Of a stretch of DNA of 64,000 nt, positions 3,329 through 63,549 are shown in pieces. Both the position numbers and the translations under genes were made by a program. This DNA is from Candidatus Gastranaerophilales bacterium (lineage in GTDB: Bacteria; Cyanobacteriota; Vampirovibrionia; Gastranaerophilales; Gastranaerophilaceae), in NCBI GenBank assembly GCA_944326685.1, contig CALVEV010000001.1, positions 1 through 64,000 of the forward strand, read 5' to 3'. The number at the start of each line of letters is the position of its first letter. Positions within the stretch are counted from its first letter, which is position 1. The notes under the pieces were generated by a model. That model had not been told where the DNA came from. It worked only from the letters and a program-made list of their open reading frames with translations, and searched no databases.

Positions 3329-3350
3329 AGATTAGAATAAAGGGATAAAA

Positions 3351-9728: not shown

Positions 9729-9781
9729 AATTTTTCTCTATTTATTAATGTTATTGTTAGTTATTAAAATAAATAAATTAT

Positions 9782-10513: not shown

Positions 10514-10598
10514 ATAATCTCCATTCTTTTATAATAATTATAGCAGTTTTTTCTTTTTTTACAATAATTTATGATTAAACATAATTAAAAAATATTAT

Positions 10599-14105: not shown

Positions 14106-14133
14106 AATTTCTCTTTTGTAATATCATATTAGC

Positions 14134-15437: not shown

Positions 15438-15468
15438 AGATTATATTTTTTTATTGTATAAAACTATT

Positions 15469-17915: not shown

Positions 17916-17924
17916 GAGCTTGTT

Positions 17925-18374
17925 ATGATAAAAACGACAACATATATTGATGTTCAGTTTTATGATTTAGATCCGATGAATATTGTCTGGCATGGGAATT
18001 ATATAAAATATTTAGAACAAGCTCGTTGTGAAATGTTTGATAAAATGAATTATTCATATATGGATATGTATAATGACGGCTTTATGTATCCTATTGTCAA
18101 AATGGATATGAAATATATTAAGCCATTAAATTTTGGCGACAGAATTAGGATAGAATGTGAATTGGAAGAAATTGAGCCATCAATTATAATAAAATACACA
18201 ATTTATAATGATAAAACTGATGAAAAAATATTCACAGCAAAATCAATGCAAATGTGTGTTGAAGTTAAGACTAATAACGCAATATATAATGTTCCTAAAA
18301 ATATGAAAGAAAAAATAAAAGAATATGAAAAATTTATTGAAAATAATTCTAATAATGATATTAACAACAAATAA
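17925..18374 (+). CDS. apeK: 4HBT-type acyl thioesterase (ApeK-like)
   Basis: Hotdog thioesterase of the 4-hydroxybenzoyl-CoA/YbgC type, 149 residues. The signature YDLDPMNIVWHGNYIKYLEQAR places the catalytic acid at D16 and a conserved His at 23. It should release or edit acyl chains. The AGGAG 7 nt before the ATG is one of the clearest ribosome sites in the operon. Its last 50 bp overlap the LolA-like gene, an unusually long overlap. Confidence 0.82.
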   Translation: MIKTTTYIDVQFYDLDPMNIVWHGNYIKYLEQARCEMFDKMNYSYMDMYNDGFMYPIVKMDMKYIKPLNFGDRIRIECELEEIEPSIIIKYTIYNDKTDEKIFTAKSMQMCVEVKTNNAIYNVPKNMKEKIKEYEKFIENNSNNDINNK

Positions 18375-18837
18375 TGTTCTAGCATCAGATGTTTTTTCTC
18401 ATCCATCTTGTGCCAGATGTGTTATGAATTCTATTCCTGATTTTGGAAACAATGTAAGATGCAAATTTACCCAAACAAAAACAATACCAAATTCTCCTGT
18501 TGTTTTAAACTCAGGCGGAGATTTTGTTTTTGATAAAAATAGAGGTGTTATTTTTTATACAAAATATCCTGTTAATATGACAACTGCTTATAATCGAAAT
18601 GAACAAGTTAATAAGATAATTAATGATATTGTAAATAGAAATTATTCATCTTTAGAAAAGAATTTTGATTTTTATTTTGTTAAATCTAATCATTGGGAAT
18701 TGGGGTTAGTTCCTAGAAATTCTCAAATGAAAAGATATGTCAAAAGATTATATATATCAGGCGATAACAAAATTAATGTAATAGAAATAAAAAATGTTGA
18801 TGGAAGTTCAACAAGAATTAATTTTAAGGAAAGCTAA
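18325..18837 (+). CDS. apeL: LolA-like periplasmic carrier (ApeL-like)
   Basis: The 170-residue protein begins with a signal peptide (1-20, ending VLAS). Then come CKFTQTKTIPNSPVVLNSGGDFVFDKNRGVIFYTKYP, the FxQ...G.f.f.kP.rl pattern of LolA-family lipoprotein carriers, and a C-terminal beta-strand region. It should carry the lipidated polyene through the periplasm. It overlaps the thioesterase gene by 50 bp and the MMPL gene by one base (TAATG). Confidence 0.75.
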   Translation: MKNLLKIILIMILTTNNVLASDVFSHPSCARCVMNSIPDFGNNVRCKFTQTKTIPNSPVVLNSGGDFVFDKNRGVIFYTKYPVNMTTAYNRNEQVNKIINDIVNRNYSSLEKNFDFYFVKSNHWELGLVPRNSQMKRYVKRLYISGDNKINVIEIKNVDGSSTRINFKES

Positions 18838-20855: not shown

Positions 20856-21301
20856 TTGTCTAATTTGTAACTTATAGATTTATCCTTTAGTCCTGATTTA
20901 ATTCTTGCTTCATAATCAGTCCAGAGTTGATAAAATTGGTTTGAATTAACATCTTTTTCAAGATTATAGTGATTTAATATTGATTTAAAATCTCTATCTC
21001 TAATTTGTTCAATATCAACTCCAATAGGAGTTTTTGATAGAGCAATCATTACATAATTTTTAGAATGCGAAATACTAAAACTTATATCTTTATCTAAACA
21101 GGGTTTTCCAGTTTTATCAATTGAGATATTATATTCTTTTATTCCATAAAATTTGTTTAAACAAAAATCTACTAGAAATCTTCCTAAAGAATGTTGAAGA
21201 AGTTTTTTTTCATTTTTTATATCTTTTTGAGCAAAACTAAGGATTTGTGATTTGTTGTTAGAGTTTATTATATTATCAATATTTGCAAGAACTACTTTCA
21301 T
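20654..21301 (-). CDS. Sfp-type 4'-phosphopantetheinyl transferase
   Basis: This enzyme would attach phosphopantetheine to the cluster's ACPs. It shows GKPCLDKDISFSISHS (65-80), GVDIE (94-98) and WTDYEARIKSG (127-137). The last normally reads WTxKEAxxK, so the lysine of KEA is a tyrosine here. Residues about 150-215 are encoded on the antisense of the MMPL gene and do not look like the usual Sfp C-terminal strands, so the natural stop seems to have been lost. The functional core probably ends near residue 155. Confidence 0.78.
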   Translation of the reverse strand: MKVVLANIDNIINSNNKSQILSFAQKDIKNEKKLLQHSLGRFLVDFCLNKFYGIKEYNISIDKTGKPCLDKDISFSISHSKNYVMIALSKTPIGVDIEQIRDRDFKSILNHYNLEKDVNSNQFYQLWTDYEARIKSGLKDKSISYKLDNYILSVSSNSTQLEIYEAIIPTDNINPNVLISLKPANIKRKNENTVDAQANNTAILEFLPPLDLKIE

Positions 21302-21303
21302 GC

Positions 21304-21309
21304 TAAAAT
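21304..21309 (+). promoter_or_regulatory. Extended -10 box, leaderless acyltransferase gene
   Basis: TGC plus TAAAAT ends 6 nt before the ATG at 21316, with TTGCAA 15 nt upstream. No Shine-Dalgarno is present. Confidence 0.5.
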
Positions 21310-21315
21310 TCTAAC

Positions 21316-22212
21316 ATGAAGAAAAAATGGTATCAGATAAAAGAACGTTCAGCAGGGATAAAGCGTTTAAAAGTAACTTGGTTTATATATAAATTATTGG
21401 GAAGAAAGCCGGTTGAATGGATTGCTTGGTGGGTTGGATTAATTACATTTTTATCCTCAAGAAGTTTAAGAGAGTATTCCAAAATATATTTTGATACCTT
21501 GTATAAATATACAAATAATAGAAAATATAAACCTTCTTTTATAAACTCATTTAAGCATATTTTATCTTATTCATTATCATTGGTTGATAAGTTGGAAGTA
21601 TATGGAAATACAACCAAATTAAATTTTGAGATAGAAGATAATGAGTTAAAACAAGAACTAAAAAATAAAGGTATATTTTTTATCGTTACTCATACAGGAA
21701 ACATTGAACTTATGAGAAATTTAATGATGAAAAAGAACCATAAAAAAGTGAATATTTTTATGCAAAAATCCCATTGTGAAAAGTTCAATGATTTTATAAA
21801 TACCCTATCAAAAACACAAGATATATCAGTTTATCCTGTTGAAGAAATAGGAATTGAAACAGCTATCGATATAAAATCAAAGCTTGAAAATGGTGAAATT
21901 GTATTTATGTCAGGTGATAGATTATCTGCTCAAAATACAAACAAATGTTATGATGCAACTCTTTTAGGTAGAAACGTCAAAATGCCCCTTGGGACATTAA
22001 AGTTTGCATTAATGATGGATAGCCCAATTTATATGCTGGCATGTTTGAAAGAAAAGAATAATAATTTTATAGTTAAATCATCAAAATTCAATAGAGATAA
22101 TTCTCGCAGTGATAATTTAGAAAACCTTCAAAAAAGTTTTGTAGAATTTTTAGAAAAAATAACTCTAGAATATCCTTATCAGTTTTATAATTTTTATGAT
22201 TTTTTTGAATAA
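21316..22212 (+). CDS. LpxL/HtrB-family lipid A-type acyltransferase
   Basis: The 298-residue inner-membrane-associated acyltransferase has the HX4E motif at H126-E131 (THTGNIEL), then FMSGDR (about 203-208) and KMPLGTLKFAL, as in the LpxL family. The missing long N-terminal TM is replaced by a short hydrophobic stretch (33-48). Such an acyltransferase is part of many APE clusters, where it may add the polyenoic acid to the glycolipid head group. It could also act in lipid A synthesis. It lies just after the APE genes but on its own leaderless-type promoter. Confidence 0.8.
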   Translation: MKKKWYQIKERSAGIKRLKVTWFIYKLLGRKPVEWIAWWVGLITFLSSRSLREYSKIYFDTLYKYTNNRKYKPSFINSFKHILSYSLSLVDKLEVYGNTTKLNFEIEDNELKQELKNKGIFFIVTHTGNIELMRNLMMKKNHKKVNIFMQKSHCEKFNDFINTLSKTQDISVYPVEEIGIETAIDIKSKLENGEIVFMSGDRLSAQNTNKCYDATLLGRNVKMPLGTLKFALMMDSPIYMLACLKEKNNNFIVKSSKFNRDNSRSDNLENLQKSFVEFLEKITLEYPYQFYNFYDFFE

Positions 22213-22217
22213 TATGA

Positions 22218-22223
22218 TATAAT
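22218..22223 (+). promoter_or_regulatory. -10 box of the 22266 gene
   Basis: TATAAT 42 nt before the chosen ATG. It starts transcription downstream of the alternative ATG at 22224, supporting the start at 22266. Confidence 0.5.
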
Positions 22224-22265
22224 TTGCTCAATACAATTATTATTTTGGTAAGTTTTGAGGTAAAT

Positions 22266-22763
22266 ATGAAAAAGCAATTAGCACTATTTATTATGTTGGC
22301 AATCTTGTTGCCTAATTTATCTGTTTTTGCAGAAACATCTGATAACACAACAGAAGTTGTTGCACCAAAATGGGAAGATTATATCCCAACAAAATATCAG
22401 AATCCAAGAAAATTTAGTAGAGGAAAAACAATAGGTGAACTTGCAACAGGTATTGTATTAACCGAACTTTTAATAACAGCTCCTATTGGAATTCCAATGA
22501 TTGTTCATTCGACTACAAAAATGAAAAATATAAATTATTATCATAAAAAGATAAAATTTGAAAATGGCTTAGCAGAAGCAGAAAAAATACAGAATCCAAA
22601 AGATAAAGAATTATATTATCAAAATCTATTAAATGATTGTGATATGACAGTAGAAGATAAAATTAAACAAGAAAAAAAACAAGCTAAGATAGATAAGAAG
22701 ATTGCAAAAAAAGAAGCAAAAGAACAAAAGAAACAAGAAAAATTAGAGTCTGAAGAAATTTAA
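22266..22763 (+). CDS. Secreted or membrane-anchored protein with lysine-rich coiled-coil tail
   Basis: Unrecognised. A signal peptide covers residues 1-22 (ending VFAET). A second hydrophobic stretch lies at about 60-85 (IGELATGIVLTELLITAPIGIPMIVH), and a C-terminal region rich in Lys, Glu and Gln looks like a coiled coil. It is 165 residues long. The start has GAGGTAAAT before it. It could be a periplasmic partner of the TolC-like protein that follows, but nothing in the sequence proves this. Confidence 0.6.
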   Translation: MKKQLALFIMLAILLPNLSVFAETSDNTTEVVAPKWEDYIPTKYQNPRKFSRGKTIGELATGIVLTELLITAPIGIPMIVHSTTKMKNINYYHKKIKFENGLAEAEKIQNPKDKELYYQNLLNDCDMTVEDKIKQEKKQAKIDKKIAKKEAKEQKKQEKLESEEI

Positions 22764-22813
22764 ATTGTAATAGCTATTTGTCTATAAAATTTTTTATCAT
22801 AAAATAATATTAT

Positions 22814-24100
22814 ATGAAGAGATTTATTCTGGCAGTATTATTAATGTTTAACATTTGCTTGGCATCATACGCAATTGTTGATCCAAGTGAGCTTGCTCAT
22901 TCTGAAACAGATAGACATAAAATATCTTTAGAAGAAGCAATGAATCTAGCATTGGAAGGTAATATTGAGCTTCAAGAACAAAGAAAAGATTTAGGAATCT
23001 CTCAAAATGATGTAAAAAAAGCTAATGCTCTAAGAAACCCACAATTCCAATCAAATTTATTAATGGGGCCTATTGCCAGAGGTAATTCCAGTCAAATCGG
23101 TATAACATTACCTATTGAAATTACAAAACGTGGAGCAAGAAAAAAATCTGCACAAGCAGAACTTTCATACACCCAAAATAAAATTAAAGATTATGAATTT
23201 AAGCTAAAATTAAGAGTTAGAATATCTTATTTCAATTTGCTTGTTGCAAAATCTGAATTAAGAATTTTAGAAGAAAGACGAGATTTATTAGAAGATTTAT
23301 TAGATATTGCTAAGAAACGTCCAAAATCTTCACCTAACTATGAAATAGATGTTCTTCAAGCTGATATGAGATTGAAGAAACAATTAGTACAAATAAATAG
23401 AGCTCAAGCAGATATCAGAACTGCTCAATATAATTTTAATAAAGTTCTTAATTTAGCAAACAATCCAACTTTGTATGATGCAAAAGAAGATTCAATTTTC
23501 AGTAAAGAATTCTTTACTCAATTGAGCTTACCTGATTATACAGAATTAGAATCAGTAGCATTTAAGAACCGTTATGATATCAAAATGGCTGAAGATAAAG
23601 TTCAAAAAGCTAAAAGAGATATTACAGTTGCTGTAAGACAAAGAGTTCCTGATTTGTATTTATCAGGTGGTTATGCGTTCGCACATGATGGTACTCCAGG
23701 TGCTTATGTTGGTGCTGGTTTTGATATCCCATCATTATATTTGTATAATCCTGAAATTAAAAATGCAAAATTAGAATATGAAAAAGCACAATTGGAATAC
23801 AATTCAATTATTAATATTACAAAAAATGTTATTCATACCAATTATGATAAATTTGTAATGGCTCAAGAAAATGTTGAACATTATAAAGATATTTTAGACG
23901 AATCAAGAAAAATTCTTAATTTATCAAAACAAAGATACCAAAAAGGTAATACAGTATTAACTAACTTAATCGTTGTAGAACATTCTCATCAAGAATTGTT
24001 GAACGAGTTTATTGACGCAATGCGAGTTTACTACAATTCTTATATTGCACTACTTCAAGAAATAGGACTTGATAACTTCACTATTGATGTAGATTTATAA
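22814..24100 (+). CDS. TolC-family outer membrane efflux protein
   Basis: Outer membrane channel component of export systems, 428 residues. A signal peptide covers 1-21. Two repeated helical modules of the OEP family follow, for example ISLEEAMNLALEGNIELQEQRKDL (first repeat) and LESVAFKNRYDIKMAEDKVQKAKRDI (second), each followed by helices with the LYLSGGYAF-type strands. It is close to the CusC/TolC type in length. It might serve as exit route for the APE exporter, but it may belong to any pump. The -35/-10 pair TTGTCT-N16-TAAAAT ends 8 nt before the ATG, so the transcript may be leaderless. Confidence 0.85.
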   Translation: MKRFILAVLLMFNICLASYAIVDPSELAHSETDRHKISLEEAMNLALEGNIELQEQRKDLGISQNDVKKANALRNPQFQSNLLMGPIARGNSSQIGITLPIEITKRGARKKSAQAELSYTQNKIKDYEFKLKLRVRISYFNLLVAKSELRILEERRDLLEDLLDIAKKRPKSSPNYEIDVLQADMRLKKQLVQINRAQADIRTAQYNFNKVLNLANNPTLYDAKEDSIFSKEFFTQLSLPDYTELESVAFKNRYDIKMAEDKVQKAKRDITVAVRQRVPDLYLSGGYAFAHDGTPGAYVGAGFDIPSLYLYNPEIKNAKLEYEKAQLEYNSIINITKNVIHTNYDKFVMAQENVEHYKDILDESRKILNLSKQRYQKGNTVLTNLIVVEHSHQELLNEFIDAMRVYYNSYIALLQEIGLDNFTIDVDL

Positions 24101-49818: not shown

Positions 49819-52800
49819 TTAATTAGACAAGAAGTTAACATATGAATGTTGCATTTTACCAATTATCGATTCCATCAAACCAAATTTAGCTTCTAATTTT
49901 TGTCTATATTTTATAAGAGCAGCACTTTGAGCCTCTATTTTATCTTGTAAATTTGAAATATTTTTATTAATTCTATTTTCAGTAGTTCCAATATAACCAG
50001 AAGAACTAAGAGCGTTATCAACAATTTTACCCATTTGTAATAAAATACCAGGTTTATCAGTTGTTCCTGATAATAAAATTTTAACTGAATCAGAATCATC
50101 TTCTAATGCTTGCATAAATTTTTCTTTATCTATAACAAGAGCTGCAACATCTGTTGATATATCATTTGATGCTTCACCAGTTGTAATACCTACAGCAGCG
50201 AGATTTTTATATACATAACTTCCTGCAAGAGATGATGTAACAAGTCTTTTCAAATTATTTTTTATTAACTTCAACATTGTATCATGTGCTAAATCAGTAC
50301 TTCCTGATAATTCTTTTTCAAGGCCTTCTATCAAAGTATTATAAGAATCAATTATATCTAAAACAGCATTATAAATACTATCATCATCTTGTTCTACAGT
50401 TATAGTTGTGCTTTCACCTTTAGAAAGACCTTTTAAATTAATTGTTAAACCTTTTATTTTTGAAATATCACTAGTAATGATGTTAGATGAAGATGTAACT
50501 GTTGTTCCATTTATTCTTACTATTGCATTTTTACCTAATGTTTGAGCTGAAGTAACAAGGGATTCAACACCATTAACAGTTTCAGTAAAGCCCATAATAT
50601 CAGTAAAGTTACTATCTCCACTTTCTATATTAATTAAAGACTCACCAGTAAGAGTAGATTGAAGAACCAAAGTTCCTGATAATGAATCCCAATAAGCAGA
50701 AGCATAAGCTTTATCTGATGCATTTATTTGTTTGATTAAACTATTAAGAGTTGTAGTTGAATCAATTGTAAAAGTTGCATCTCCTATTGTAAAGCTTCCT
50801 TCGGTTATATTTCCTGCTTTAAATAATCCAGCTTCTGTTATCAATGAATTAATATTTACTTTGTATAATGCTCGAGAACCTTCTATATTAGATTCTGATT
50901 TTTGAGTTAAATTTGCAATTGTTGCAAAATTAGTTTTATCATTAGACGCACCTATAACTAATTTTTCACCACCAACCATTTTAAAAGCAATAATACCTGT
51001 ATTTTTATCTGCAGTTGGATTTTTAACAATATTGCCATCTGTATCTAGGAAACCTGCTTCGATTGTTTTACCAGTTTTAGCCGCAACTTCTACAACAATT
51101 TTATCAAATAGAACCTCAAAAGAATCATTTGAATTAACATTTACAGTAGCTTTAACACCATCTACATATAGACTTAATTCGCCATCTTTAATATTTACTG
51201 TACTTAATTTAGTATTTCCATCTGCAAAATTTGCAACAGATGTTATAACATCTTCTTGATATGTTAGACTTGATGAACTAGTAGCATATTTATCAACATT
51301 TGTAGTTACTAAATTAAGAGTATCTTGAATACCAGAAGTTCCACCTGTAATAGCGAAACCATCAACACCATTATCAATTCTTATTACACCATCTTGAATA
51401 ACAGCATTAACACCTTCTTTTTGCAATTTTTCAAGCAATGAACCTACTGTTTCAGTAGAAGATATGTTAATAATATGTTGGGTTTGGTCAGGACCATTTC
51501 CAGTTGTAAAGAAAAGAGATCCTTCTGCAATAAATCCATTTTTATCAAAGTCTGATAACAACATATCCTCAGTTATTAAACCAGATGTTACACCTGTATC
51601 CCAATGGATAATTTGAGAATCATAATCTCCTTGATTAATATTAGCTAAGCCGAGCTTTTGAACAACATCACTTGTTCCATCTGCTAGTTTGATTTGTCCA
51701 TCGGAACTCAATTTTATATATGTTTCACCAGTTGGTTTAGTTACAATAGAACCATCAATACCATATACTTTAATTGCACTAAATAGTTGACCAATTGTAG
51801 TATTTTCATCAATTAAAATACCACTAGTTAATATATCTGAACCATCAAGAATATTCAAATACCCACTAGAAACACCAAGACTAGATAGCTTTGTATTTTC
51901 ATCAATATTTTCAGTTGTATTAAATCTTATAGGGTCAGAAATATAACCTGTATCAATATTGTTATATGCTCCACCTTGCATTAAGTAATTACCTAAAGCT
52001 CCTCCTAATGCAAAGGTATGATCATCACTTCTAAAAGAGACTTTTCCATCTGCATCAACATTAAGTTCAATGCCATAAACCGCAAATGTATCAGCAATAT
52101 CTTGTAAAGTATCTGTTTCTAAGAATGACAATGAATATTGAGTATTACCATCTACTGTCAACCTTATAACTCCACCATCTTCAAATCCCATTGAGGCAAC
52201 AGTATCATCCATACTTAATTTATTAGTATATTTTAATGAACTAGAAGATGAATTTACATAAGGAAGATCTACAATCAATGGCTCATCTGTTACATATTTT
52301 TTATCAGTATTTACATAACCAGTAGATCCAGATGTCAAATAATTACCTAAATCTCCTGTAAATATAAATGAATGTTCCTTGCTACTAATTGTTAAAGCAC
52401 CATTTGTATTATTTATTGCAACATTTATTCCTAGTGTTTGAAGAGAATTAATAATATTTTGAAGGGTATCATTGGCACTAAATGAAATAGATTTTGTTTC
52501 TGTTCCATCAAGAATCATATTTAATTCTGCACCATCTTTAAATCCCATTTCTGCTAGTGTTGAATTTGTAGTCAATTTTGAAGATGTTTGATTCCAATTA
52601 GTAAGTTTAAACTTAGAAATCATATTAGATGAACCATCTATTAATGAATAACCATCTGCAGAAGATATAGAAACTTTCCCTGATGCATCAACACTCATAT
52701 TAAAACCATAAGGTTTTAATGTATTTGTTATTTGTTCTATAGTCATAGAATTATCAACATCTATAGAATTAATAACATTTCCATTGGTATCAACAACATA

Positions 52801-55800
52801 TACTTGACCATTTGTTATTCCAATATTTGCAAGAATTGAATTGTTATTAATTACATTTGTTTTTTGATATGACAAATCTTGGGAAATAAATTCGCTATCA
52901 AAATTTGTATATGTTGGATTATTACCTTGTAATATATTTCCAATATTTCCAGCTAAAGTAAAAGTTTTGTCATAACTAGTTGCAGATATAACACCATTAG
53001 ATATACTCATATTTATACCTAATGCAGCTAAATCATCCATTATTGTTTGAACACTATCAGTAGAATCATAATCAAGATTTATAACTTGTGACTCACCAAT
53101 TACAACTCTTAATGTACCACCAGCATTAGATTTCAACAAATCAGCAACAGTTGAATTTGCTGTAATATTTTGTTTATTTGATTTATATGTTAAAGCAGTA
53201 TGGCTTTCATAACCTTTTATATTATTTTGATAACCTGTAGAACCTTTTGTAAGAGCAGATGCTAAATCACCAGAAAATACAAAAGAATGAGAATTACTTG
53301 TTGCAGTAAATTTACCATTTGCATCAACAGAAGCTGTAATACCAACTGCATTTAATGAATTTATAATATCTTGGATAGAATTTTTAGCACCAAAATCAAA
53401 ATTCATTTGGGTTGTACCATCAAGTAATAAATTAAGAGTAGAGCCGGAAGAGAAACCTAATTGCTCAAGAGTTGTTGCAGTTGTTAATTTCCCTGTTGTA
53501 GCAGTCCAAGTATCAAGTTTCAAAGCCGAAACAAAGTTTGATGAACCATCAACAAGTTTATTTGGAGTATTAGAACTAATTGTTACTTTTTTATTTGCAG
53601 TATCTAAAGATAAAGTAAATCCATATGCTGATAAGGTTGATTTTATTTGATCAAGAGTTTTTGAACTATCAATATTAATACTACTTAGGAAATTCCCATC
53701 AGCATCTAAAATATTTATTGTACCATCTTTTATGCCAAGATTTTCTAACACAGTTGTATTAGTTAATGGAAGTGTAATTTGATTATTTATGCCATTAGAG
53801 ACATATTCATTCGGAGTATTTTCTACTGTGAAATTATCTCCCAATAGTGCCTTAGCTAAATCTCCTTGCATTGATATATTTTTATCACTATTTACAGAGA
53901 ATACACCATCAGCAGAAACTTCGGCGTTAACCCCATAATAAGCCAAATCATTTATAACATCATTTAATGTATCATCTTTATCATAAGATAGATTATATTG
54001 AACACCATCAACCATTAAGTTAATAGATCCGCCTTTACCTGTACCAATTAGCTCACTAACTTTAGTTGTTTCAGCCAATTTAACATATCCGATTGTTTTT
54101 GTTGCATTCGCATATGATGATGTACTGCTTGATGAAGAATTTTTTAATAAAGTATCAAATAACTCCCCTTCAAAAGATATTCCTGCAGAATCATATACTT
54201 CTATTTTTAGTTGGTTTCCAGAATAACTAGCATTTACTCCTCCAACCGAATAATTTAAATAATAAATTAAATCTTCAAGGGTTGAACCTGAATAAAATGT
54301 TTTAGTATAAGTTTGTCCACTTTTTTTAATTGTTATAGAATTCTCTGCTTTTGATGTAATTGATTCTAAAGTTGAACGAAGTTCTGCTGTTTTCATTTTA
54401 TATTTTTCATGATTAGGCATATTTGATTCTATCCAAGAAGAAGTTTTTGCTTGAACACTACCTTGATTAACACTACCATGCATTGAAGAATCATAAACAC
54501 AACTATTGTCTAATGCATAACTTGTAGAACCATAAAAAGCACCATAGTTTGTTCGACCTCCAACAACCCCCATTGCATATGATGAAGTAATAGAGTTAGT
54601 ATTATAACCAACAAAACCACCAAGGGCTAGATTATTTGCACCAACCATGCCGCTAACATTAGATTTAGAATAAGAGTCACTTATAGTACCATTATTACTT
54701 CCGACAAATCCACCCAAGAAAATGGTATCATAAACCATAGTCCCATATGAAGATAAATATATGTTATTATTAGCATAAGATTGATAAATGGTGCCAAGAT
54801 TATTACCAACTAGTCCTCCAATAACATTCATTCCACGACTAGTATTATTGTTATATTGTTCTATGGTAACAGAATCAGAAAAAGAATAATTAATACGACT
54901 TGCACTATCCAATTCGCCAACTAACCCGCCAGCATACATATTCCCTGAAAAAGTTGACCCGGAAGAAATACTAAAATAACCATTGTTTACATAGCAATTA
55001 TTAATATAAGATGTCCCTGATATTCTACCCACCAAACCTCCAACATAAGATGTTGAAGATGGGGTAATGGAAATATTAATATTTTCGACTCCTAAATCAT
55101 CTATTCTTGCATTTTGAATAACTCCAAAAATACCTGCTGTATTATTAGGTGCTGATGTTATACTTACATTTTTTATAATATTACCATTAGCATTTAAAGT
55201 CCCTTGAAATGGATTAGAAGATGTCCCTATTGGAGTAAAATTTACTCCACTCATATCTATATCTTGGTTTAATATAAAAGTAGCACCCTGTGTTGAAATC
55301 CCACTATTCACTTTCTCTGCTAATGATATTAAATCTTCTTTAGAACTTATAGAATAATAATAAATATTATATTGAGAAAAATCTGATACACTTGATACAG
55401 GTAAAATATAAGGAGCTCCAACATAACTCGTAGAATGAATAAATGTTAATCCAGATGCTTGAATATTAGATGAAGTGATAACCATATCAGAAGTAGTATT
55501 TGTTGTTAAATTTAGTGCATCTGCGAGATTTCCTGTTACGTATCCTCCACTTATAGATAAATTAGAACCATTCATCTTAGCATATTCAACACCAGAAGTT
55601 CCATAATAACTATTAAGCTTGCTATTTATTGCAGAAACCCAATTATTAAATGTTGCTGTATTTTTGCCTCCAGATAGAGAATATGAACCATTAGTTGAAT
55701 CTGATAAAATTAGAGTGCCATCTGAAGCATATAGATTATATGTAAAATCTGATGAGTTAGGATTTGTTGATGCAGTACCTCCATTTAGTACCGAATCAAT

Positions 55801-58800
55801 TGTAGTTGAACCTGTTGCAGTAACAGTATTAGCATTAGTTTTTTGAGTATGAGTAATTGAACCTTGATTACCTAATAAAGCTCTTGCTACATTACCAGAT
55901 ATAGATACATTTTCTTCACTAGTAGCAGTAAATTCTCCACTAGAAGATAATGAGGCAGTTACTCCATATGTTCCTAAATCATCTATAACATCTTGAATTG
56001 TATCAGTAGAACTATAACTAAAGTTTATCTGAGTACCATTTACAGTAAGTTTTAAAGAACCTCCATCAACGCTACCTAATAATTCTCCAATTTTAGTACT
56101 TGTTGTTATATTACTTCGCTTGTTATAAGTCAATGTTTTTGAATTATTTTCTGTTTTATTAATATTCGTAGAAGTATATTCCGGAAGTAGAACATCTGCC
56201 AAACCTCCTGATAAATATAAATTAGTATCTGTATTACTTGATACTGTAAATTGGTAATTTGAATTTGAGTAACTAGCATTAACTCCCGGTATATTATTCA
56301 AATAATTTATAACATCTTCTAAGGTATCAAATCGGTCAAAAGTTTTGGTATGAGTAACTCCACCTACAGATACATTTAATGTTCTACTTTCATCAGAATG
56401 TAGTCCCATTCTATAAAGTTCTGTTGGATGATATGAACTAGTAGGATTACTAGTTGTATAATGATGTATTTTATCTTCTAAATAAACATTAGTAGCTTTT
56501 GTTAATCCTGTTGTCTCAACTGTTTGATCATCACTAATAGTATTCTTTACATAACACAAAGAAAAAGTTGGAGAATATGTTATAGGAATAGCATAAAAAC
56601 TACCTTGTTTAAGATTTGAAACAGAAGTAGTATGAGGCGATATATATGAATATATAGATGTATATTTTCCTCCTTGAGCTGCTGCAAGGACTCCTCCAAG
56701 TTGAGCAGTATTTGAAATATTATTCGCAGTAACATCTCCTGATATATATGCGTTACTTATCTTAACATCTCGCCCAGCATTAAAAGCAGCAAAACCACCT
56801 ACAACTGCATTTTTTGCTTCATTAATTGTAATATTTGTGTCAACTTGAATATTATTAAAAGTTGAAACATCAGCAAGATCATAGGCGGTTTCTCTCCAAC
56901 CTATAATACCGACTACCCCTCCTGCATATATTAAAGAAGTCTTTGTAGTTAGTGTTTGTGTATTAATATCAACATCAACATATATATCGCTAATATTAGA
57001 ATTCCTTACTGCCCCTACTAAACCACCTATAGAAAGCCTTAAAGAACTAAAATTTTGATTATTGTAACTAATGTTTCCTCCATCAACTACACAATTACTA
57101 ATTGTAGACTCATATGAATTACCTACTAATGTTCCCAAACCATGAGCTGTAGTTGAGCTAATACCAGTAATATTTATTGAAACATTTTCAAGTCGAACAT
57201 CTTTAACTACTGCGTATCCTATTGACCCAAATAACCCAGTACCTGAATCTTTTAAATTAAAATCCTTAGAAGCATTTATACTTGCATTTGATATAGTATG
57301 TCCTCCGCCATAAAAATTTCCTTGAAAAAACGCTCCGTTATCATTGCCAATAGGGTCAAATGATATTCCGCTCATATCTATATCATTTTTTAATACAAAA
57401 GTAATACCAGATGTTGAATTTTTTGCATTAACCAATTCTGATAATTTAACCAAATCTTGAGCATCATATATCCCGTAAACAGCTCCTGGAGTCAAAGCAG
57501 AGAAATTGGAAAGTTTTTGTAAGCTTACATTTTCATATTGCGTATCTACAGCTGAAACAAAACCTTTAAACTTATTATACTCAATCTCTGTACTAGTTAA
57601 TTTTATACCACTAACAGATGATGAAGTTGTTAATCCTAATGAATTAGCTATATTACCTGTAATATAACCACCTGTTATTTTTAAAGAATTACCTTCTAAT
57701 GTTGCATAATTTACACCTGAGGTACCATAATAACTATTTAAAGAAGAATTTATTGCATTAATAAATGTTCCTATTGTTGCTACATTATTCCCTCCTGACT
57801 TCGAATAAGTCCCAGAATATGCAGTTCCAGTAATTTTATTCCCATAGCTATCATATAATGTATATGTATAATTACTACTACTTGGAGATGAAACAAACTG
57901 CCCATTATTAATTATATAATCAATATATGTATTACTTGTAACAGGAGTTTCAACACCAGATTCAATACTACCATTACTAGATATTGTCGTACTATAACCT
58001 GAAGGGATATATGTTATTGCAGTATTACTTGAAATTTCAGTTTTAGTCCCAGTTTCTTTTAACCCTAAACTGTTAACTAAACTTCCTGATAAACTAACAC
58101 CTTCAATATAAATTTTACCATCAGAATCAATTCGCATAGAGCCACCTGCAGCTTCTATGTCAGCTTTGATTGTTGCTAATGTATCTGTTAATTGATAAGT
58201 TTTAGATACTCCATCATTAATTGTTAATGTTGGGGTTCCAATATTAGGAATATCACTAAGCTTTGTAGTCATCGATGCTACAACATTAGAAATAGGAGTT
58301 AATTCTCCACTACTTGTTGATGTAGTTTTTGTAACGACAGTAAGGTTTCCACTTGATATTGTTGTGCCTGATATTGTTGGTGATAGATTTAAAATATCAA
58401 CAATATCGCCACTTAAAGTTACTCCTTGAACACTTATAATACCGTTTTCAATTTTTGCAGAACCACCAGCTGCCTGAATATCTGCTAATATTGTACTAAT
58501 TTTAGTAGTATTCGCATATGTTTTATTTGTAGCATTTATTGATAGACTTTTATTTGTCGTAACACCTAAATCTTTCAATGTATTTTCAGCTGTCGCAACA
58601 TTTTCTACACCACCAACAGTGATTGCAGTACCACTTGTCATTTCTGTACCTTGCCCAATAGCACTTAAACCTAACGCAGTAAGTAATGATCCAGAAAGTT
58701 TAACCCCTTCTATAGATATAGTATTATCATCATTTATTTTAAAAGTTCCACCTTGGGCGGTTATTAAATTACTTATGCTTTGTAGAGTAGAATCCTTTGT

Positions 58801-60765
58801 AATTGTTTGAGAAGTTCCACCATTTATAGATAATGTATAATTTGATGTAGTACCAGTAATATCACCTATTTTAGAAGACATTGTTATATTATTATCAACT
58901 GATTCTTCTACTCCACCAGTTCCAGTAGAAGATGAATTTGTTATTATAGATAATGCGCCTGATGTAATTGATGTTCCTTGACCAGTTGCTTCAAAACCTA
59001 ACAATCCAGCTAATGTTCCACCTAATGTCACTCCTGAAACATTCATAATACCATCTTTGAATTCAACTGTACCACCTGCGGTTTTGATATCTTGAATTAC
59101 AGTATTTAATGTTGTAGTTTTATTATATGTTTTTGTACTACCATCAATAATTAGTGTTTGATTAGCAACTGCTCCTAAATCTTCTAAAGTAGTTGATATT
59201 GTTGCAGCTTCTTGATAATAATCAGTTTTTGATGTCATACCCAATTGGGTTGCTAATGTACCTGTTATATATCCATCATCTATTTTTATTTGTTGGGTAT
59301 TTTCATCAAAAGAAGCATTTAACCCAAAACCTTTTAATTGATTAATAAAATCATTAATTGTTATATTTTGATTATTATTATTAATAACTCCTACTTGAGT
59401 ACCATCTGATTTATACGCAGTGTAAGCCATTGCGGAGGTTACACCTAATTCTGATAACAAAGTATCTCCTGTAGCTTTATATGTTACAGTATGCGCATTA
59501 CTAGTTAATGTTGTTCCGCCTTTTGTTACCTCTAAACCTAGTGCATCAATTAAAGTTCCTGAGATTTCGACACCATTAGTATCAATCTCTATTACACCAT
59601 CTGAATCAATAGACATATCAACACCTTTTGCATTTAATAAATCTTTTACTGTTTGCAAGGTAGTTGTTGTCCCTAAATTATTACTAGCTCCATCAATAAC
59701 TAATGTTTTTGTTGATGTAATACCAATATCAGCTAATGTTGTTGTAAAATCTGCAGCATGACCTTTTTGGAATGTCAAATTTTGGCTTTCCATTATAGTA
59801 CGTTCTTCAACATCACCTAAGTTTAATGCTTCCTTAATATTTGAACCACCTGATACAGATTCAATAACAGCTCCACGAATTGTTATATTACCTTGAGTAT
59901 CTATAGATGCTTCTTCTGCATTAACATTTGTACTTTTTAAATAAGATAAAAATTGTCCCAAAGTATTAATTGTTGTTGATGTAGATGTTCCTTGTTTTTG
60001 TATTGTATAATTTGTTCCACTTTTAGTAATTGTATGAGTAGCGCCTTCTATTTTAATATCACCAGCAGTAACACCTAATTTATATAATTCGGTATCAGAA
60101 GTAGCATATACTAAAGACCCTGAAATTACTCCAGATACATTTGTATCTTGAAGTTTTAATGCATTTTTTAAACCTGTACCACCATCGTTTATATTACTCA
60201 CTGCAGTATTTACAGTAAATGTACTCTTTTTTTGATTGAAAGATGCAACGACACCAACATTACTAAATTTTTCGATTAATGATTTTATTGTATCATTTTC
60301 AGAAATATTAAAAGATTTACTGTTTACTGTAATAGTACCAGTCTGAACTCCTAAAGTTCCTAATGTAGTATCTAAAGTAGCAAATTGAGTAACCGAATCC
60401 TTTTGACCACTTGTTGCTTTAGTTGATGTAGCTAATTGATCAACTAATACATCATAACTTTGACGAGCTGCTTCTGTAGTTGCTGTAGCCGTAACTATAT
60501 TCGTATTTGAAGATGTTGCCAAATTCTGCATGAATAAATCCATTGAAGGAATTCCAAATTGAGAATCTGTTATCTTCTGTAATGTTGCTTGAAAACTTGA
60601 AAAATATGATTTTATACCATTAACAACATTTAATAATTCTTGTTGTGCTTTTTGCTCCTCTTGCAAGCTAGTTAATGTAGTAGATTTTACAGACACTAAA
60701 GATTCTATCCATGACGCAGTATCTAATCCTGATGATAAACCACTAAATGTAATTGTACCAGCCAT
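49819..60765 (-). CDS. Giant FliD-like surface protein with hook-IN-like repeats and two GLUG blocks
   Basis: A 3,648-residue open frame without interruption. Residues 1-110 match the FliD N-terminal domain (TFSGLSSGLDTASWIESLV), and about 3400-3648 the FliD C-terminal domain, ending in coiled coil (NRINKNISNLQDKIEAQSAALIKYRQKLEAKFGLM). Between them I count about 24 beta-rich repeats of 75-110 residues of the Flagellin-hook-IN kind, such as TLEDLGAVANQTLIIDGSTKTY...TVEFKDGIMNVSGVTLGGTLAGLLG. Two GLUG-rich blocks interrupt them, about 1087-1455 and 1793-2128, each starting TF[VI]L-DIDMSG. Ordinary FliD is 400-900 residues. No signal peptide is seen, so export would need a flagellar-type or related system. 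GGAGG lies 4 nt before the ATG. Filament cap, giant adhesin or both are possible. No other flagellar gene is in the window. Confidence 0.85.
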   Translation of the reverse strand: MAGTITFSGLSSGLDTASWIESLVSVKSTTLTSLQEEQKAQQELLNVVNGIKSYFSSFQATLQKITDSQFGIPSMDLFMQNLATSSNTNIVTATATTEAARQSYDVLVDQLATSTKATSGQKDSVTQFATLDTTLGTLGVQTGTITVNSKSFNISENDTIKSLIEKFSNVGVVASFNQKKSTFTVNTAVSNINDGGTGLKNALKLQDTNVSGVISGSLVYATSDTELYKLGVTAGDIKIEGATHTITKSGTNYTIQKQGTSTSTTINTLGQFLSYLKSTNVNAEEASIDTQGNITIRGAVIESVSGGSNIKEALNLGDVEERTIMESQNLTFQKGHAADFTTTLADIGITSTKTLVIDGASNNLGTTTTLQTVKDLLNAKGVDMSIDSDGVIEIDTNGVEISGTLIDALGLEVTKGGTTLTSNAHTVTYKATGDTLLSELGVTSAMAYTAYKSDGTQVGVINNNNQNITINDFINQLKGFGLNASFDENTQQIKIDDGYITGTLATQLGMTSKTDYYQEAATISTTLEDLGAVANQTLIIDGSTKTYNKTTTLNTVIQDIKTAGGTVEFKDGIMNVSGVTLGGTLAGLLGFEATGQGTSITSGALSIITNSSSTGTGGVEESVDNNITMSSKIGDITGTTSNYTLSINGGTSQTITKDSTLQSISNLITAQGGTFKINDDNTISIEGVKLSGSLLTALGLSAIGQGTEMTSGTAITVGGVENVATAENTLKDLGVTTNKSLSINATNKTYANTTKISTILADIQAAGGSAKIENGIISVQGVTLSGDIVDILNLSPTISGTTISSGNLTVVTKTTSTSSGELTPISNVVASMTTKLSDIPNIGTPTLTINDGVSKTYQLTDTLATIKADIEAAGGSMRIDSDGKIYIEGVSLSGSLVNSLGLKETGTKTEISSNTAITYIPSGYSTTISSNGSIESGVETPVTSNTYIDYIINNGQFVSSPSSSNYTYTLYDSYGNKITGTAYSGTYSKSGGNNVATIGTFINAINSSLNSYYGTSGVNYATLEGNSLKITGGYITGNIANSLGLTTSSSVSGIKLTSTEIEYNKFKGFVSAVDTQYENVSLQKLSNFSALTPGAVYGIYDAQDLVKLSELVNAKNSTSGITFVLKNDIDMSGISFDPIGNDNGAFFQGNFYGGGHTISNASINASKDFNLKDSGTGLFGSIGYAVVKDVRLENVSINITGISSTTAHGLGTLVGNSYESTISNCVVDGGNISYNNQNFSSLRLSIGGLVGAVRNSNISDIYVDVDINTQTLTTKTSLIYAGGVVGIIGWRETAYDLADVSTFNNIQVDTNITINEAKNAVVGGFAAFNAGRDVKISNAYISGDVTANNISNTAQLGGVLAAAQGGKYTSIYSYISPHTTSVSNLKQGSFYAIPITYSPTFSLCYVKNTISDDQTVETTGLTKATNVYLEDKIHHYTTSNPTSSYHPTELYRMGLHSDESRTLNVSVGGVTHTKTFDRFDTLEDVINYLNNIPGVNASYSNSNYQFTVSSNTDTNLYLSGGLADVLLPEYTSTNINKTENNSKTLTYNKRSNITTSTKIGELLGSVDGGSLKLTVNGTQINFSYSSTDTIQDVIDDLGTYGVTASLSSSGEFTATSEENVSISGNVARALLGNQGSITHTQKTNANTVTATGSTTIDSVLNGGTASTNPNSSDFTYNLYASDGTLILSDSTNGSYSLSGGKNTATFNNWVSAINSKLNSYYGTSGVEYAKMNGSNLSISGGYVTGNLADALNLTTNTTSDMVITSSNIQASGLTFIHSTSYVGAPYILPVSSVSDFSQYNIYYYSISSKEDLISLAEKVNSGISTQGATFILNQDIDMSGVNFTPIGTSSNPFQGTLNANGNIIKNVSITSAPNNTAGIFGVIQNARIDDLGVENINISITPSSTSYVGGLVGRISGTSYINNCYVNNGYFSISSGSTFSGNMYAGGLVGELDSASRINYSFSDSVTIEQYNNNTSRGMNVIGGLVGNNLGTIYQSYANNNIYLSSYGTMVYDTIFLGGFVGSNNGTISDSYSKSNVSGMVGANNLALGGFVGYNTNSITSSYAMGVVGGRTNYGAFYGSTSYALDNSCVYDSSMHGSVNQGSVQAKTSSWIESNMPNHEKYKMKTAELRSTLESITSKAENSITIKKSGQTYTKTFYSGSTLEDLIYYLNYSVGGVNASYSGNQLKIEVYDSAGISFEGELFDTLLKNSSSSSTSSYANATKTIGYVKLAETTKVSELIGTGKGGSINLMVDGVQYNLSYDKDDTLNDVINDLAYYGVNAEVSADGVFSVNSDKNISMQGDLAKALLGDNFTVENTPNEYVSNGINNQITLPLTNTTVLENLGIKDGTINILDADGNFLSSINIDSSKTLDQIKSTLSAYGFTLSLDTANKKVTISSNTPNKLVDGSSNFVSALKLDTWTATTGKLTTATTLEQLGFSSGSTLNLLLDGTTQMNFDFGAKNSIQDIINSLNAVGITASVDANGKFTATSNSHSFVFSGDLASALTKGSTGYQNNIKGYESHTALTYKSNKQNITANSTVADLLKSNAGGTLRVVIGESQVINLDYDSTDSVQTIMDDLAALGINMSISNGVISATSYDKTFTLAGNIGNILQGNNPTYTNFDSEFISQDLSYQKTNVINNNSILANIGITNGQVYVVDTNGNVINSIDVDNSMTIEQITNTLKPYGFNMSVDASGKVSISSADGYSLIDGSSNMISKFKLTNWNQTSSKLTTNSTLAEMGFKDGAELNMILDGTETKSISFSANDTLQNIINSLQTLGINVAINNTNGALTISSKEHSFIFTGDLGNYLTSGSTGYVNTDKKYVTDEPLIVDLPYVNSSSSSLKYTNKLSMDDTVASMGFEDGGVIRLTVDGNTQYSLSFLETDTLQDIADTFAVYGIELNVDADGKVSFRSDDHTFALGGALGNYLMQGGAYNNIDTGYISDPIRFNTTENIDENTKLSSLGVSSGYLNILDGSDILTSGILIDENTTIGQLFSAIKVYGIDGSIVTKPTGETYIKLSSDGQIKLADGTSDVVQKLGLANINQGDYDSQIIHWDTGVTSGLITEDMLLSDFDKNGFIAEGSLFFTTGNGPDQTQHIINISSTETVGSLLEKLQKEGVNAVIQDGVIRIDNGVDGFAITGGTSGIQDTLNLVTTNVDKYATSSSSLTYQEDVITSVANFADGNTKLSTVNIKDGELSLYVDGVKATVNVNSNDSFEVLFDKIVVEVAAKTGKTIEAGFLDTDGNIVKNPTADKNTGIIAFKMVGGEKLVIGASNDKTNFATIANLTQKSESNIEGSRALYKVNINSLITEAGLFKAGNITEGSFTIGDATFTIDSTTTLNSLIKQINASDKAYASAYWDSLSGTLVLQSTLTGESLINIESGDSNFTDIMGFTETVNGVESLVTSAQTLGKNAIVRINGTTVTSSSNIITSDISKIKGLTINLKGLSKGESTTITVEQDDDSIYNAVLDIIDSYNTLIEGLEKELSGSTDLAHDTMLKLIKNNLKRLVTSSLAGSYVYKNLAAVGITTGEASNDISTDVAALVIDKEKFMQALEDDSDSVKILLSGTTDKPGILLQMGKIVDNALSSSGYIGTTENRINKNISNLQDKIEAQSAALIKYRQKLEAKFGLMESIIGKMQHSYVNFLSN
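53840..57938. repeat. Two adjacent blocks of a segmental duplication inside the giant gene
   Basis: Block A (about 55862-57938) and block B (about 53840-55815) share the same order: a LNSYYGTSGV module, GLUG block, a THTKTF/YTKTF module with TLED, and a GGSxxL hook-IN repeat ending in ALLG. See GGYITGNIANSLGLTT versus GGYVTGNLADALNLTT. The protein similarity is far from identical, so the duplication is old. Confidence 0.7.
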
Positions 60766-60908
60766 TAGACCTCCAAATTGTCATTAGTACGTGATAGTTT
60801 TACAACAATAAACTAGCATTATTCATTCCATAATAAAAATTTTATACAGTATTTATAATATCCTTTATATATCTGCCGCTACTTATCTATTTATTTGGAA
60901 TAAATGAG

Positions 60909-60929: not shown

Positions 60930-61028
60930 TATATATCTATTATATCACTATTCCCCATTTTTTCAAGCCTTATCTAAATAAATGTTAAGTTTTCCACAAG
61001 ATATTCTATTTAGTATAAAATATTTATT

Positions 61029-62156
61029 ATGAAAAGATCTTTTAAAAAGTTTTTTAAATTCTTATTTATATTACTATTATTAGCTGGTTTATTTTTTGGT
61101 AGAGATTATGTCAGAAAATACGTTATAAATAGAATTCTTGGGGTGTATTATGTATACAAAGGGGATAGAGCCTACCACAAGCATAAATTAGCATATTCTA
61201 TAGAATATTATAATAAAGGATTAGAGTATTTCCCTAGCCATTATACTGCTTGGTATAATCTTGGAAATATTTATGTTGTTTATGAAGATTATTATTCTGC
61301 TGTTCAAGCTTATAAAAAAGCAATTGAATATAATCCTAGATACACCTTAGCTAGAATGAATCTTGGAATTATTGAAGCCGAAAAATTAGGAAATTTTGAT
61401 GAAGCAATAAACCAATACAATGCTATTATTAATCTAAAAAATAAAATCTGGGCTGTTCCGTTTCTTTTTAGTAATAAGAAAAGCTCAAAACAGAATATTG
61501 GACTCGCATACTACAATAGAGGACTTGCTTATCGCGGGAAAGCAATGTTTTTAGCAGAAGATGATAGAGAGTTAGAAATTGGATTTTTAAAACAGGCAGC
61601 TGAATCATACGAAAAATCTCATAAAATATTAAGAAAAAACTCTGATGTAGTATTTAACTTAGCACTAACATACCATTTAATGGGCAACTACAGAGATGCT
61701 GGAATAAATTACTGTAAAGCAATATACCTAACCCCTATGAATTATGAAGCACATTATAATTTAGCAATATTATTAAAACGATTGAAACGATACAAAGACT
61801 CTGTAGATGAATTAGAAAAAGCTTCTTTACTATTATCTTTTAGAGATGGTGAAGATGGACGTTCTTCATATGTATTTGGAATATTATCAGACGCATCTCA
61901 TTTATATGCAAAATATGGTGCCAACGAATTAGGTACTAATATGGATATTTACGATACTGATAATCAAGATGTTAATGTTAAAAAGAAAAAGAAGAAAAAA
62001 AAGAAACATACTGAAGATGATGATATAAAATTCAATTATTCGACAGGTAAAATTGTTCCAGCAGAAGAAATGAGCAAAACTATGATGCAAACATTTAAAG
62101 TTTGTGCTGGAATGGATTATTTTAAACACGAGGCTCCAGACGATGAAGAATATTAA
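61029..62156 (+). CDS. Membrane-anchored TPR protein
   Basis: The 375-residue protein has one N-terminal TM helix (about 8-24), then several tetratricopeptide repeats, such as YTAWYNLGNIYVVYEDYYSAVQAYKKAIEYNPRY and YEAHYNLAILLKRLKRYKDSVDELEKASLL, and a Lys-rich segment (KKKKKKKK at about 318-325). The -10-like TATAAAAT stands 7 nt before the ATG with no ribosome site, so a leaderless mRNA is likely. It overlaps the next gene by 14 bp. Confidence 0.85.
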   Translation: MKRSFKKFFKFLFILLLLAGLFFGRDYVRKYVINRILGVYYVYKGDRAYHKHKLAYSIEYYNKGLEYFPSHYTAWYNLGNIYVVYEDYYSAVQAYKKAIEYNPRYTLARMNLGIIEAEKLGNFDEAINQYNAIINLKNKIWAVPFLFSNKKSSKQNIGLAYYNRGLAYRGKAMFLAEDDRELEIGFLKQAAESYEKSHKILRKNSDVVFNLALTYHLMGNYRDAGINYCKAIYLTPMNYEAHYNLAILLKRLKRYKDSVDELEKASLLLSFRDGEDGRSSYVFGILSDASHLYAKYGANELGTNMDIYDTDNQDVNVKKKKKKKKKHTEDDDIKFNYSTGKIVPAEEMSKTMMQTFKVCAGMDYFKHEAPDDEEY

Positions 62157-63549
62157 TGAACTTGATATGTTAATGAATTTTTCTAATCTGATTAATTCGG
62201 CTTCTGATATTTTTTCTATTGCTTCTAATATAAAACAATATTATAGAGGTCTAAAAGAATTTAATATTTTATTTTATGATTATTCTTCTAAAAAATTGAA
62301 AGATGTTATTAATAACTTTTCTCCAATTGAAGATATGTACGATGAAACAGCAATTGGAGTTTTATATTCTAACTTCTTAAAATTATCAAATTGCGATTTT
62401 ATAATTGATAATAAAGAGTATTACAAACTTAGTTTTAATGAAGAAATATCTTCTAAAGTATTATTAATACCATTAAAAATGTCAGATTCTATATATGGAA
62501 TGATTGAATTAAGATTTAATGAAAATAAAGTATATAATTATAAAATTATAAATGCACTTAATATTTTTGCAAATCAACTTTTACTATTTATACAAAATAC
62601 TTTATTAAAAGAAAAATTACAACTTAATTATGATTTTTATGACTCCTTAAAAAATATTGCAAAAATTATTGAAACTCAATATGAATTAAATTATATTATC
62701 CCATTAATTGGAGAAATGATAGATAAATTTGTATCTAATCATTTAATATATATATTTATAAAAAATGGTTCAGAATATAAATTATTTTGGCCAAATGCTT
62801 GTAGAGATAAAGGAGTAAATGAACTAATCAAAAAACTCAAAACCGATTACTTAATATCAGAAGATAGGAAAATAGGAATTTTCCCATTAATTACAGAAAA
62901 AGAAATTCTAGGTTGTATCGTAGCTCATAGTACAATTGATAAATTAACTCCAGATGATATTGAATATATCAACCAATTAACAAAACAATCTTCTATAACT
63001 ATAGAAAGAGCCAACACATATGCTGAAGTATTAAAACATGCAACATTAGATGCTTTAACAGGTTTAAACAATAGACGTCAATTTGAAATTCGTTTAAAAC
63101 AAGAATATGCAAGTGCAAAACGTCAAAAGCACTCATTATGTGCAATGATGATTGATATTGATTTCTTTAAAAGTATTAACGATACATATGGGCATGCTAT
63201 TGGGGATAAAGTTTTAAAATCAGTTGCTAAGATAATAAAAGAACAACTACGGGAATATGATATTCCTTCTCGTTATGGTGGCGAAGAATTTTGTATATTA
63301 CTTCCTCAGACAAAAATAGAAGAAGCTAACATTGTTGCTCAAAGATTAAGAACAGCAGTTGAAAAAAGTGTTGTAGAAGTTTCTAATGAAAAAGAATCTC
63401 AAAATAAAAAAATAAATGTTACAATAAGTATAGGTCTATCTCAATTAAATAAAACAGATATAGCTGACGATTTATACAAAAGAGCTGATAGAGCTTTGTA
63501 TGAAGCAAAAGAAAGAGGCAGAAACAGGGTTGTAGTATATGAAGAATAA
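62143..63549 (+). CDS. GAF-GGDEF diguanylate cyclase
   Basis: Makes cyclic di-GMP from two GTP, 468 residues with the start at 62143. The sensory N-terminal part (about 15-290) looks like one or two GAF-like domains: LLIPLKMSDSIYGMIELRF and IGIFPLITEKEILGCIVAH. The C-terminal GGDEF domain has the active site RYGGEEF (379-383 for GGEEF), preceded by an allosteric I-site RxxD (REYD, five residues before). LTGLNNRRQFE and the helix YEAKERGRN are typical. It is coupled to the TPR gene upstream and to tsaE downstream by short overlaps. Confidence 0.92.
   Translation: MKNINELDMLMNFSNLINSASDIFSIASNIKQYYRGLKEFNILFYDYSSKKLKDVINNFSPIEDMYDETAIGVLYSNFLKLSNCDFIIDNKEYYKLSFNEEISSKVLLIPLKMSDSIYGMIELRFNENKVYNYKIINALNIFANQLLLFIQNTLLKEKLQLNYDFYDSLKNIAKIIETQYELNYIIPLIGEMIDKFVSNHLIYIFIKNGSEYKLFWPNACRDKGVNELIKKLKTDYLISEDRKIGIFPLITEKEILGCIVAHSTIDKLTPDDIEYINQLTKQSSITIERANTYAEVLKHATLDALTGLNNRRQFEIRLKQEYASAKRQKHSLCAMMIDIDFFKSINDTYGHAIGDKVLKSVAKIIKEQLREYDIPSRYGGEEFCILLPQTKIEEANIVAQRLRTAVEKSVVEVSNEKESQNKKINVTISIGLSQLNKTDIADDLYKRADRALYEAKERGRNRVVVYEE

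Follow-up and report, generated by a model that had tools for sequence, protein, structure and literature searches.

On the minus strand of the window, which comprises the whole 64,000-nucleotide stretch of DNA analyzed here, we identified an open reading frame that begins with ATG, contains zero internal stops, and encodes a protein of 3,648 amino acids with the ends of the flagellar filament-cap protein FliD (Table 1). The intact 10.9-kb frame remarked on in the first-pass annotation was found open over all 3,648 codons, and an ortholog of exactly 3,648 aa was encountered in a second genome (G002), where the gene order around it is the same (ThyX, unknown gene, NFACT, giant, TPR). The genome of the window (G000; 2.13 Mb, 99.97% complete, 5.2% contaminated) belongs to Candidatus Gastranaerophilales, within the non-photosynthetic Melainabacteria. 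Its close relatives are Candidatus Gastranaerophilales MAGs, and other matches were derived from yak colon, goat colon, and roe deer rectum.

Table 1. Features of the giant FliD paralog and its upstream region, in window coordinates.
Feature	Residues	Coordinates	Strand	Evidence
Promoter-like site TTGAAA-N16-TATAAT		60932..60966	-	167-201 bases upstream; extended form unique in genome
Shine-Dalgarno GGAGG		60770..60774	-	sequence; also in G002 ortholog
Giant FliD paralog		49819..60765	-	3,648 aa, predicted 384 kDa, pI 4.5; same-length syntenic ortholog in G002
FliD_N (D0/D1 N-terminal half)	12-114	60424..60732	-	PF02465 E 1.9e-14
N-side array, 8 FliD D2/D3-type modules	129-900	58066..60381	-	module profile
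Weak divergent module	963-1043	57637..57879	-	sub-threshold profile match, E 0.2
GLUG beta-solenoid block 1	about 1063-1440	56446..57579	-	block profile; Pfam Glug E 0.0041, Peptidase_M26_N E 8.4e-4, both under cut-off
Two modules between GLUG blocks	1446-1630	55876..56430	-	E 7.3e-17, 1.2e-22
Weak divergent module	1650-1751	55513..55818	-	sub-threshold profile match, E 0.91
GLUG beta-solenoid block 2	about 1776-2110	54436..55440	-	Pfam Glug E 7.5e-10, 5 motifs; AlphaFold model
C-side array, 10 modules	2127-3150	51316..54387	-	module profile; AlphaFold model of 2325-2830
Two modules = canonical FliD D2/D3	3181-3380	50626..51225	-	BLASTP colinear over 3176-3647, 38% identity; modules at 3181, 3309
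FliD_C (C-terminal D0/D1)	3411-3639	49849..50535	-	PF07195 E 1.2e-33

The neighbours scanned in the window encode ThyX, NFACT, a TPR protein, a GGDEF protein, LptC, an LptA/D-like protein, DprA, a topoisomerase, and shikimate dehydrogenase. As the first-pass annotation had noted, no flagellar gene was found among them, and the nearest flagellin on the same contig (C1:113249) is about 52 kb from the giant; the canonical fliD likewise lies outside any flagellar operon. The TPR protein and the GGDEF diguanylate cyclase are encoded by a gene pair divergent from the giant (window 61029-63549), and a link between this pair and adhesion control is possible. Elsewhere in the window, one stretch (9000-24100) contains ketoacyl synthases, an AMP-binding/ApeI-like dehydratase fusion, and an outer-membrane efflux protein, and resembles an aryl-polyene cluster or a similar one of the fatty-acid type. 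The promoter-like site of the giant resembles the sigma-70 sites upstream of canonical fliD in these genomes, and the G002 ortholog has kept both a TATAAT-like element and the GGAGG in its upstream region. No sigma-28 type motif was found upstream of the giant, and control by sigma-28 was rejected on this basis; the upstream site has the appearance of an ordinary sigma-70 promoter.

Both termini scored above the Pfam curated cut-offs, with 54.5 bits against 24.8 for FliD_N (PF02465) and 116.9 bits against 25.4 for FliD_C (PF07195); the corresponding whole-genome searches gave 62.8 and 122.7 bits. The FliD-type ends that had been claimed for this protein, and on whose detection by profile searches the earlier reading had been made to depend, are therefore present. 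Flagellin_N and Flagellin_C were absent among the Pfam matches of the whole giant protein. It was noted that the giant is 6.2 times as long as the canonical FliD (588 aa) of the same genome; the first-pass annotation had given four to nine times the length of a normal FliD. When the two were aligned by BLASTP, only two colinear blocks were recovered (38-44% identity): residues 1-180 of the giant aligned with the N-terminus of the canonical protein, and residues 3176-3647 with its remainder. A PDB sequence search with the whole giant returned no match, and the canonical FliD query does match solved FliDs.

The region between the two ends had been described as about 24 beta-rich, hook-IN-like repeats. 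Using a module profile that was seeded from the giant's own repeats and iterated over eight giants (significance at E<0.01), we recovered 22 significant modules of ~79 aa with a median spacing of 105 aa, together with 2 sub-threshold modules, in agreement with that count. The proposed identity of the repeats held in part: they are beta-rich and of the FliD D2/D3 head type, but the match to Pfam Flagellin_IN (19 bits) remained under its cut-off of 22.7. Canonical FliDs hold two such modules by the same profile. Comparison of the module profile with canonical FliD by HHalign gave a probability of 98.4% (E 3.7e-14) at residues ~141-223 and a weaker match (E 4e-6) at the second canonical site, ~243-328.

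Structure prediction pointed to the same domain. The AlphaFold model of residues 2325-2830, computed from a 37-row alignment (pLDDT 71, pTM 0.30), would correspond to a flexible string of beta-alpha domains, and it matched D2-D3 of E. coli FliD (5h5v) with a Z of 8.4 at 2.6 A over 96 residues. FliDs came first in its structure match list, and FliDs and flagellins filled the top rows. A Z of ~8 is middling when taken alone; these top-row matches and the agreeing sequence profiles nevertheless support the prediction that the module is a FliD head domain. The modules share a mean identity of 25% (maximum 47%) and no DNA-level tandem repeats were found in the giant gene, so the array appears to be old. 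An assembly artefact, frameshift read-through, and recent slippage were rejected as sources of the long frame on account of the same-length syntenic ortholog, the lack of DNA tandem repeats, and the 25% module identity.

Two GLUG blocks had also been reported, and both were recovered, block 2 strongly by Pfam and block 1 more weakly by Pfam and located with a block profile. Glug was weak when the whole giant protein was scanned with Pfam, and Peptidase_M26_N matched the GLUG blocks at E 2.7e-4 to 8.4e-4, under cut-off. The AlphaFold model of residues 1760-2130 (24-row alignment; pLDDT 86, pTM 0.87) consists mainly of short strands, and matched the beta-helix of IgA1 protease with a Z of 28-32 over ~284 residues. 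The next structure matches, at a Z of 17, were largely glycan-active beta-helices and tailspikes. The likeness to beta-solenoid surface adhesins was weaker, with a Z of 15.9 for PfbA of S. pneumoniae and a match to SRRP of L. reuteri in the Foldseek list only. The giant is thus similar to the M26 IgA1 proteases in its GLUG motifs and in fold, but differs in that its solenoid sits on a flagellar protein and in that the zinc site is missing: no HExxH zinc-protease motif was found in the 26 giants checked. A protease reading of the GLUG region was ruled out on this ground, and because of the missing motif a binding role is likelier than a cleaving one.

Judged from profiles and alignments, the window protein is a FliD paralog in which ~3,000 residues have been inserted at the head (D2/D3) position, and the insert consists of ~20 extra copies of FliD's own head domain and two central GLUG beta-solenoids.

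We surveyed 333 genomes of the family for further giants and found those of the main clade in three genera only (g1, g25, and g30). Complete giant frames range from about 2,000 to 6,603 aa, canonical FliDs are mostly 470-625 aa, and the lengths are bimodal. The longest giant (G004; 6,589 aa from a GTG start) brings the family up to eleven-fold the canonical length. As far as the assemblies allow, giant carriers also hold a canonical FliD, and two giants in one genome are common (G003, G007, G307, and G341). In a tree of 105 C-terminal regions, 41 giants grouped together in a single clade (100/99), with the canonical FliDs of these three genera next to it, which implies one duplication before the genera split, followed by retention. 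Misbinning of the contig, a concern given the 5.2% contamination, was rejected by the shared synteny in G002 and by the position of the giant among its genus mates in the tree, and a phage origin was rejected since no relative of the giant was found in the viral contigs searched. No giant was found in two of the eight species of the window's genus (G001 and G005; 97% and 93% complete), both of which have a canonical FliD, so the giant is either dispensable or was missed by assembly in these species. The retained canonical FliD and these two flagellated species suggest that the giant is not needed for flagellin polymerization. In genus g34, one genome (G040) carries two very divergent FliD-like ORFs of >1,300 aa and about 3,012-3,022 aa (L050 1-3901 and 4348-13386). 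The larger sits on a very long branch apart from the main giant clade and is apparently an independent enlargement.

A shared plan was evident when modules and GLUG blocks were mapped over 26 giants, 13 of them with GLUG. The GLUG-bearing giants run from a FliD N-end through 4-14 modules, 1-8 GLUG blocks, and 9-18 modules to a FliD C-end. The GLUG blocks, which are sometimes interleaved with modules, were central in 13/13 of the GLUG-bearing giants mapped; compared with random placement among the modules, per-protein permutation gave p values from <0.001 to 0.05, the relatives not being independent of one another. In genus g1, every complete giant has exactly 12 modules after its last GLUG block. 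Where GLUG is lacking, as in g30 mainly and in part of g25, the center of the giant is low-complexity and Thr/Ser-rich or unassigned.

We then compared the rates of change in G000 and G002. The giants share 62% amino-acid identity (dN/dS 0.21), the canonical FliDs 90% (0.066), and the neighboring NFACT proteins 95% (0.041); these ratios are rough because dS is near saturation. Giant dN/dS spans 0.15-0.21. The strong selection that the first-pass annotation had read from the intact frame was borne out as purifying selection, but only of a moderate degree, with a dN/dS of about 0.21 versus 0.066 for canonical FliD. Along the giant, identity falls from 92% at the N end (residues 1-128) to 71% in the N-side array, 37% in GLUG block 1, and 40% in GLUG block 2, and rises to 61% in the C-side array and 87% in the FliD tail. 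A middle trough was also noted in two other ortholog pairs. On these comparisons, the giant is an old paralog beside canonical FliD and is subject to purifying selection; its ends are conserved and its middle changes fast.

The earlier reading had also been made to depend on flagellar or type III-like export genes, and these were found in the genome: G000 encodes the flagellar export gate FlhA (E 1.1e-263), 9 Flagellin_N matches, rod/hook-type proteins, and two FlgK, in addition to the canonical FliD. According to Soo et al. (PMC4040986), a full set of flagellar genes is present in only part of the Gastranaerophilales, and in agreement with this, FliD_C was found in 54/98 genomes and flagellin in 57/98, largely the same genomes. 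The two FlgK genes of G000 are in tandem (G000:C21:55434-60957), each followed by a weak Flagellin_N match that is probably FlgL. Most genus g1 genomes have FlgK in two copies, and the other genera that were sampled have one. We rejected the idea of a second complete flagellum equipped with junction proteins of its own, since a double FlgK does not track with the giant: wherever FlgK was found in giant carriers of g25 and g30 it is single, and the giant is missing from two species that have FlgK twice. A second FlhA-type gate (G000:C35:45815-47791 and relatives) is present in almost every member of the family, even where FliD or flagellin is lacking, and may serve a non-flagellar export system.

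The flagellins of these genomes were varied as well. A 617-aa flagellin of G000 carries a GLUG insert (G000:C18; L160 2411-4264; E 1.8e-10). The protein encoded beside it (L160 790-2109) starts MGM(S/A)ASQAR.L.LTAR..N.E.EGQQINQQRT, and the same start was noted in a protein adjoining the 6,589-aa giant FliD (L040 1977-3929). Giant flagellins of 1,222-1,402 aa were found in the genus mates G007 and G001 (L159 2426-6604, L161 2258-6283, L162 2207-6415, and L163 1685-5352), and those scanned gave weak RTX-like matches between Flagellin_N and Flagellin_C. Further giant flagellins were found in G341 (2,619 aa), G058 (2,238 aa), and G023 (3,249 aa), and they also occur in genera without a giant FliD.

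The nearest known system is the FliD/HAP2 cap itself, with which the giant shares the N- and C-terminal domains, head modules of the D2/D3 type, colinear homology, and the setting of a genome that encodes flagellar export and filament proteins. The giant differs in being six-fold longer (up to eleven-fold in relatives), in having 22-24 head modules rather than 2, in its central GLUG solenoids, in being a second gene beside the canonical cap, and in its faster evolution. The chain of C. jejuni FliD doubles back into a v-shape, so that its two termini lie in the leg and the D2-D3 head is the part farthest away; the protein also carries an extra D4 domain postulated for adherence (PMC7316729). 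It resembles the giant in having additional material in the head region, but here a single domain has been added to the cap protein itself, and in the giant an array of ~3,000 aa is carried by a paralog. Giant flagellins (PMC6248924) are likewise flagellar subunits with conserved ends and an enlarged surface insert with internal duplications. They differ in forming the filament in thousands of copies, the giant FliD being of the cap type, which in known FliDs is present in few copies at the tip, and the giant FliD is several times above the thousand-residue threshold used for them (PMC6248924). For P. aeruginosa and C. difficile, canonical FliD has been implicated in binding to mucin or mucus, though direct mucin binding by P. 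aeruginosa FliD was not shown, and Pelotomaculum FliD binds methanogens (PMC4009794).

From this examination, we favor, with a probability of about 0.58, the reading of the giant as a duplicated filament-cap protein (FliD/HAP2) rebuilt as a long flagellar tip adhesin. A flagellar or filament-tip adhesin had been proposed in the first-pass annotation, and that proposal is supported in part: the protein is FliD-derived, has long repeat arrays, and occurs in a genome with flagellar export and filament genes, and the adhesin reading is strengthened by the central GLUG solenoids and by the conservation gradient. The FliD ends would direct export of the giant via the flagellar type III gate, and the protein would be seated at the filament tip alone, mixed with canonical FliD, or replacing it. 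Because FliD folds back with both termini in the leg, a head insert must go out and return; the two module arrays may therefore form the outgoing and returning limbs of a hairpin arm, a geometry that we infer, given the modest confidence of the array model (pLDDT 71, pTM 0.30). The GLUG solenoids at the far end would then form a head that binds mucus glycans, the surfaces of the host, or neighboring microbes. The conservation gradient fits such an arm, anchored at the tip of the filament and ending in a distal head that diversifies. Against the tip adhesin we count that no sigma-28 promoter was recognized, that the gene is far from flagellar genes, that no giant was found in two of the eight species of the genus, and that GLUG is absent in many g25 and g30 giants.

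Alternatively, the giant might be a FliD-derived adhesin that is exported by the flagellar gate and then released, or bound along the filament or extracellular matrix, and is not seated at the tip. FliD ends would in principle suffice as an export address, canonical FliD is kept for capping, and the frequent presence of two giants per genome also speaks for this arrangement, which we nevertheless regard as unlikely: the filament-inserting terminal D0/D1 segments are the most conserved parts of the protein (92% and 87%), which suggests that seating is still selected. It is more improbable that the giant is a special assembly cap for very large flagellins, with a bigger head giving room for folding and polymerization. 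Giant flagellins are a known kind (PMC6248924), and genomes with giant FliDs encode large flagellins (889-1,481 aa, and 2,619 aa in one case), but giant flagellins also occur without a giant FliD in G001 (1,346 aa), G005 (1,371 and 1,393 aa), G058 (2,238 aa), and G023 (3,249 aa). A pairing of giant cap with giant flagellin was rejected, as the two do not track, and GLUG heads and a fast-evolving center would be unexpected in a folding chamber. That the giant is a substrate of the second FlhA-type gate, as part of a non-flagellar system, seems very improbable; the near-universal presence of this homologue in the family would allow it, but every giant in the genomes checked occurs alongside flagellin, canonical FliD, and the flagellar FlhA. 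A repeat gene that has no function and is decaying or expanding neutrally, to which the widely varying lengths and a dN/dS three times that of canonical FliD might point, is hardly credible and is disfavored by frames of 2,400-6,600 aa open in many species of three genera, by a dN/dS of 0.15-0.21, by the 12 C-side modules of every complete genus g1 giant, and by a single clade that has been retained from a time before the genera diverged.

Returning to the tip adhesin, a more far-reaching and tentative possibility, in which we place rather little confidence, is that the flagella of some gut Melainabacteria have an interchangeable tip, in which giant FliDs of 2,400-6,600 residues, following the ordinary cap or sitting next to it, would extend several hairpin arms with diversifying solenoid heads as a long-range grappling organelle. 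As part of this possibility, the GLUG-bearing flagellins of the same genome would make the shaft sticky too. In the open literature, most subscription journals being outside the search, we found neither giant FliDs nor any FliD of Melainabacteria described. What is new here, as established from sequence comparison, is a family of giant FliD paralogs of single origin that has been kept beside canonical FliD.

FliD sits where the flagellum first meets a surface, and ordinary FliDs are suspected mucus adhesins. The family would be unexpected for specialists on flagellar assembly and on gut Melainabacteria, and it raises the questions of how so long a protein passes through the flagellar channel, whether caps are mixed or swapped, and what this uncultured gut lineage grips. 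The giant family would show that a dedicated adhesive flagellar tip has evolved by multiplying the cap's own head domain.
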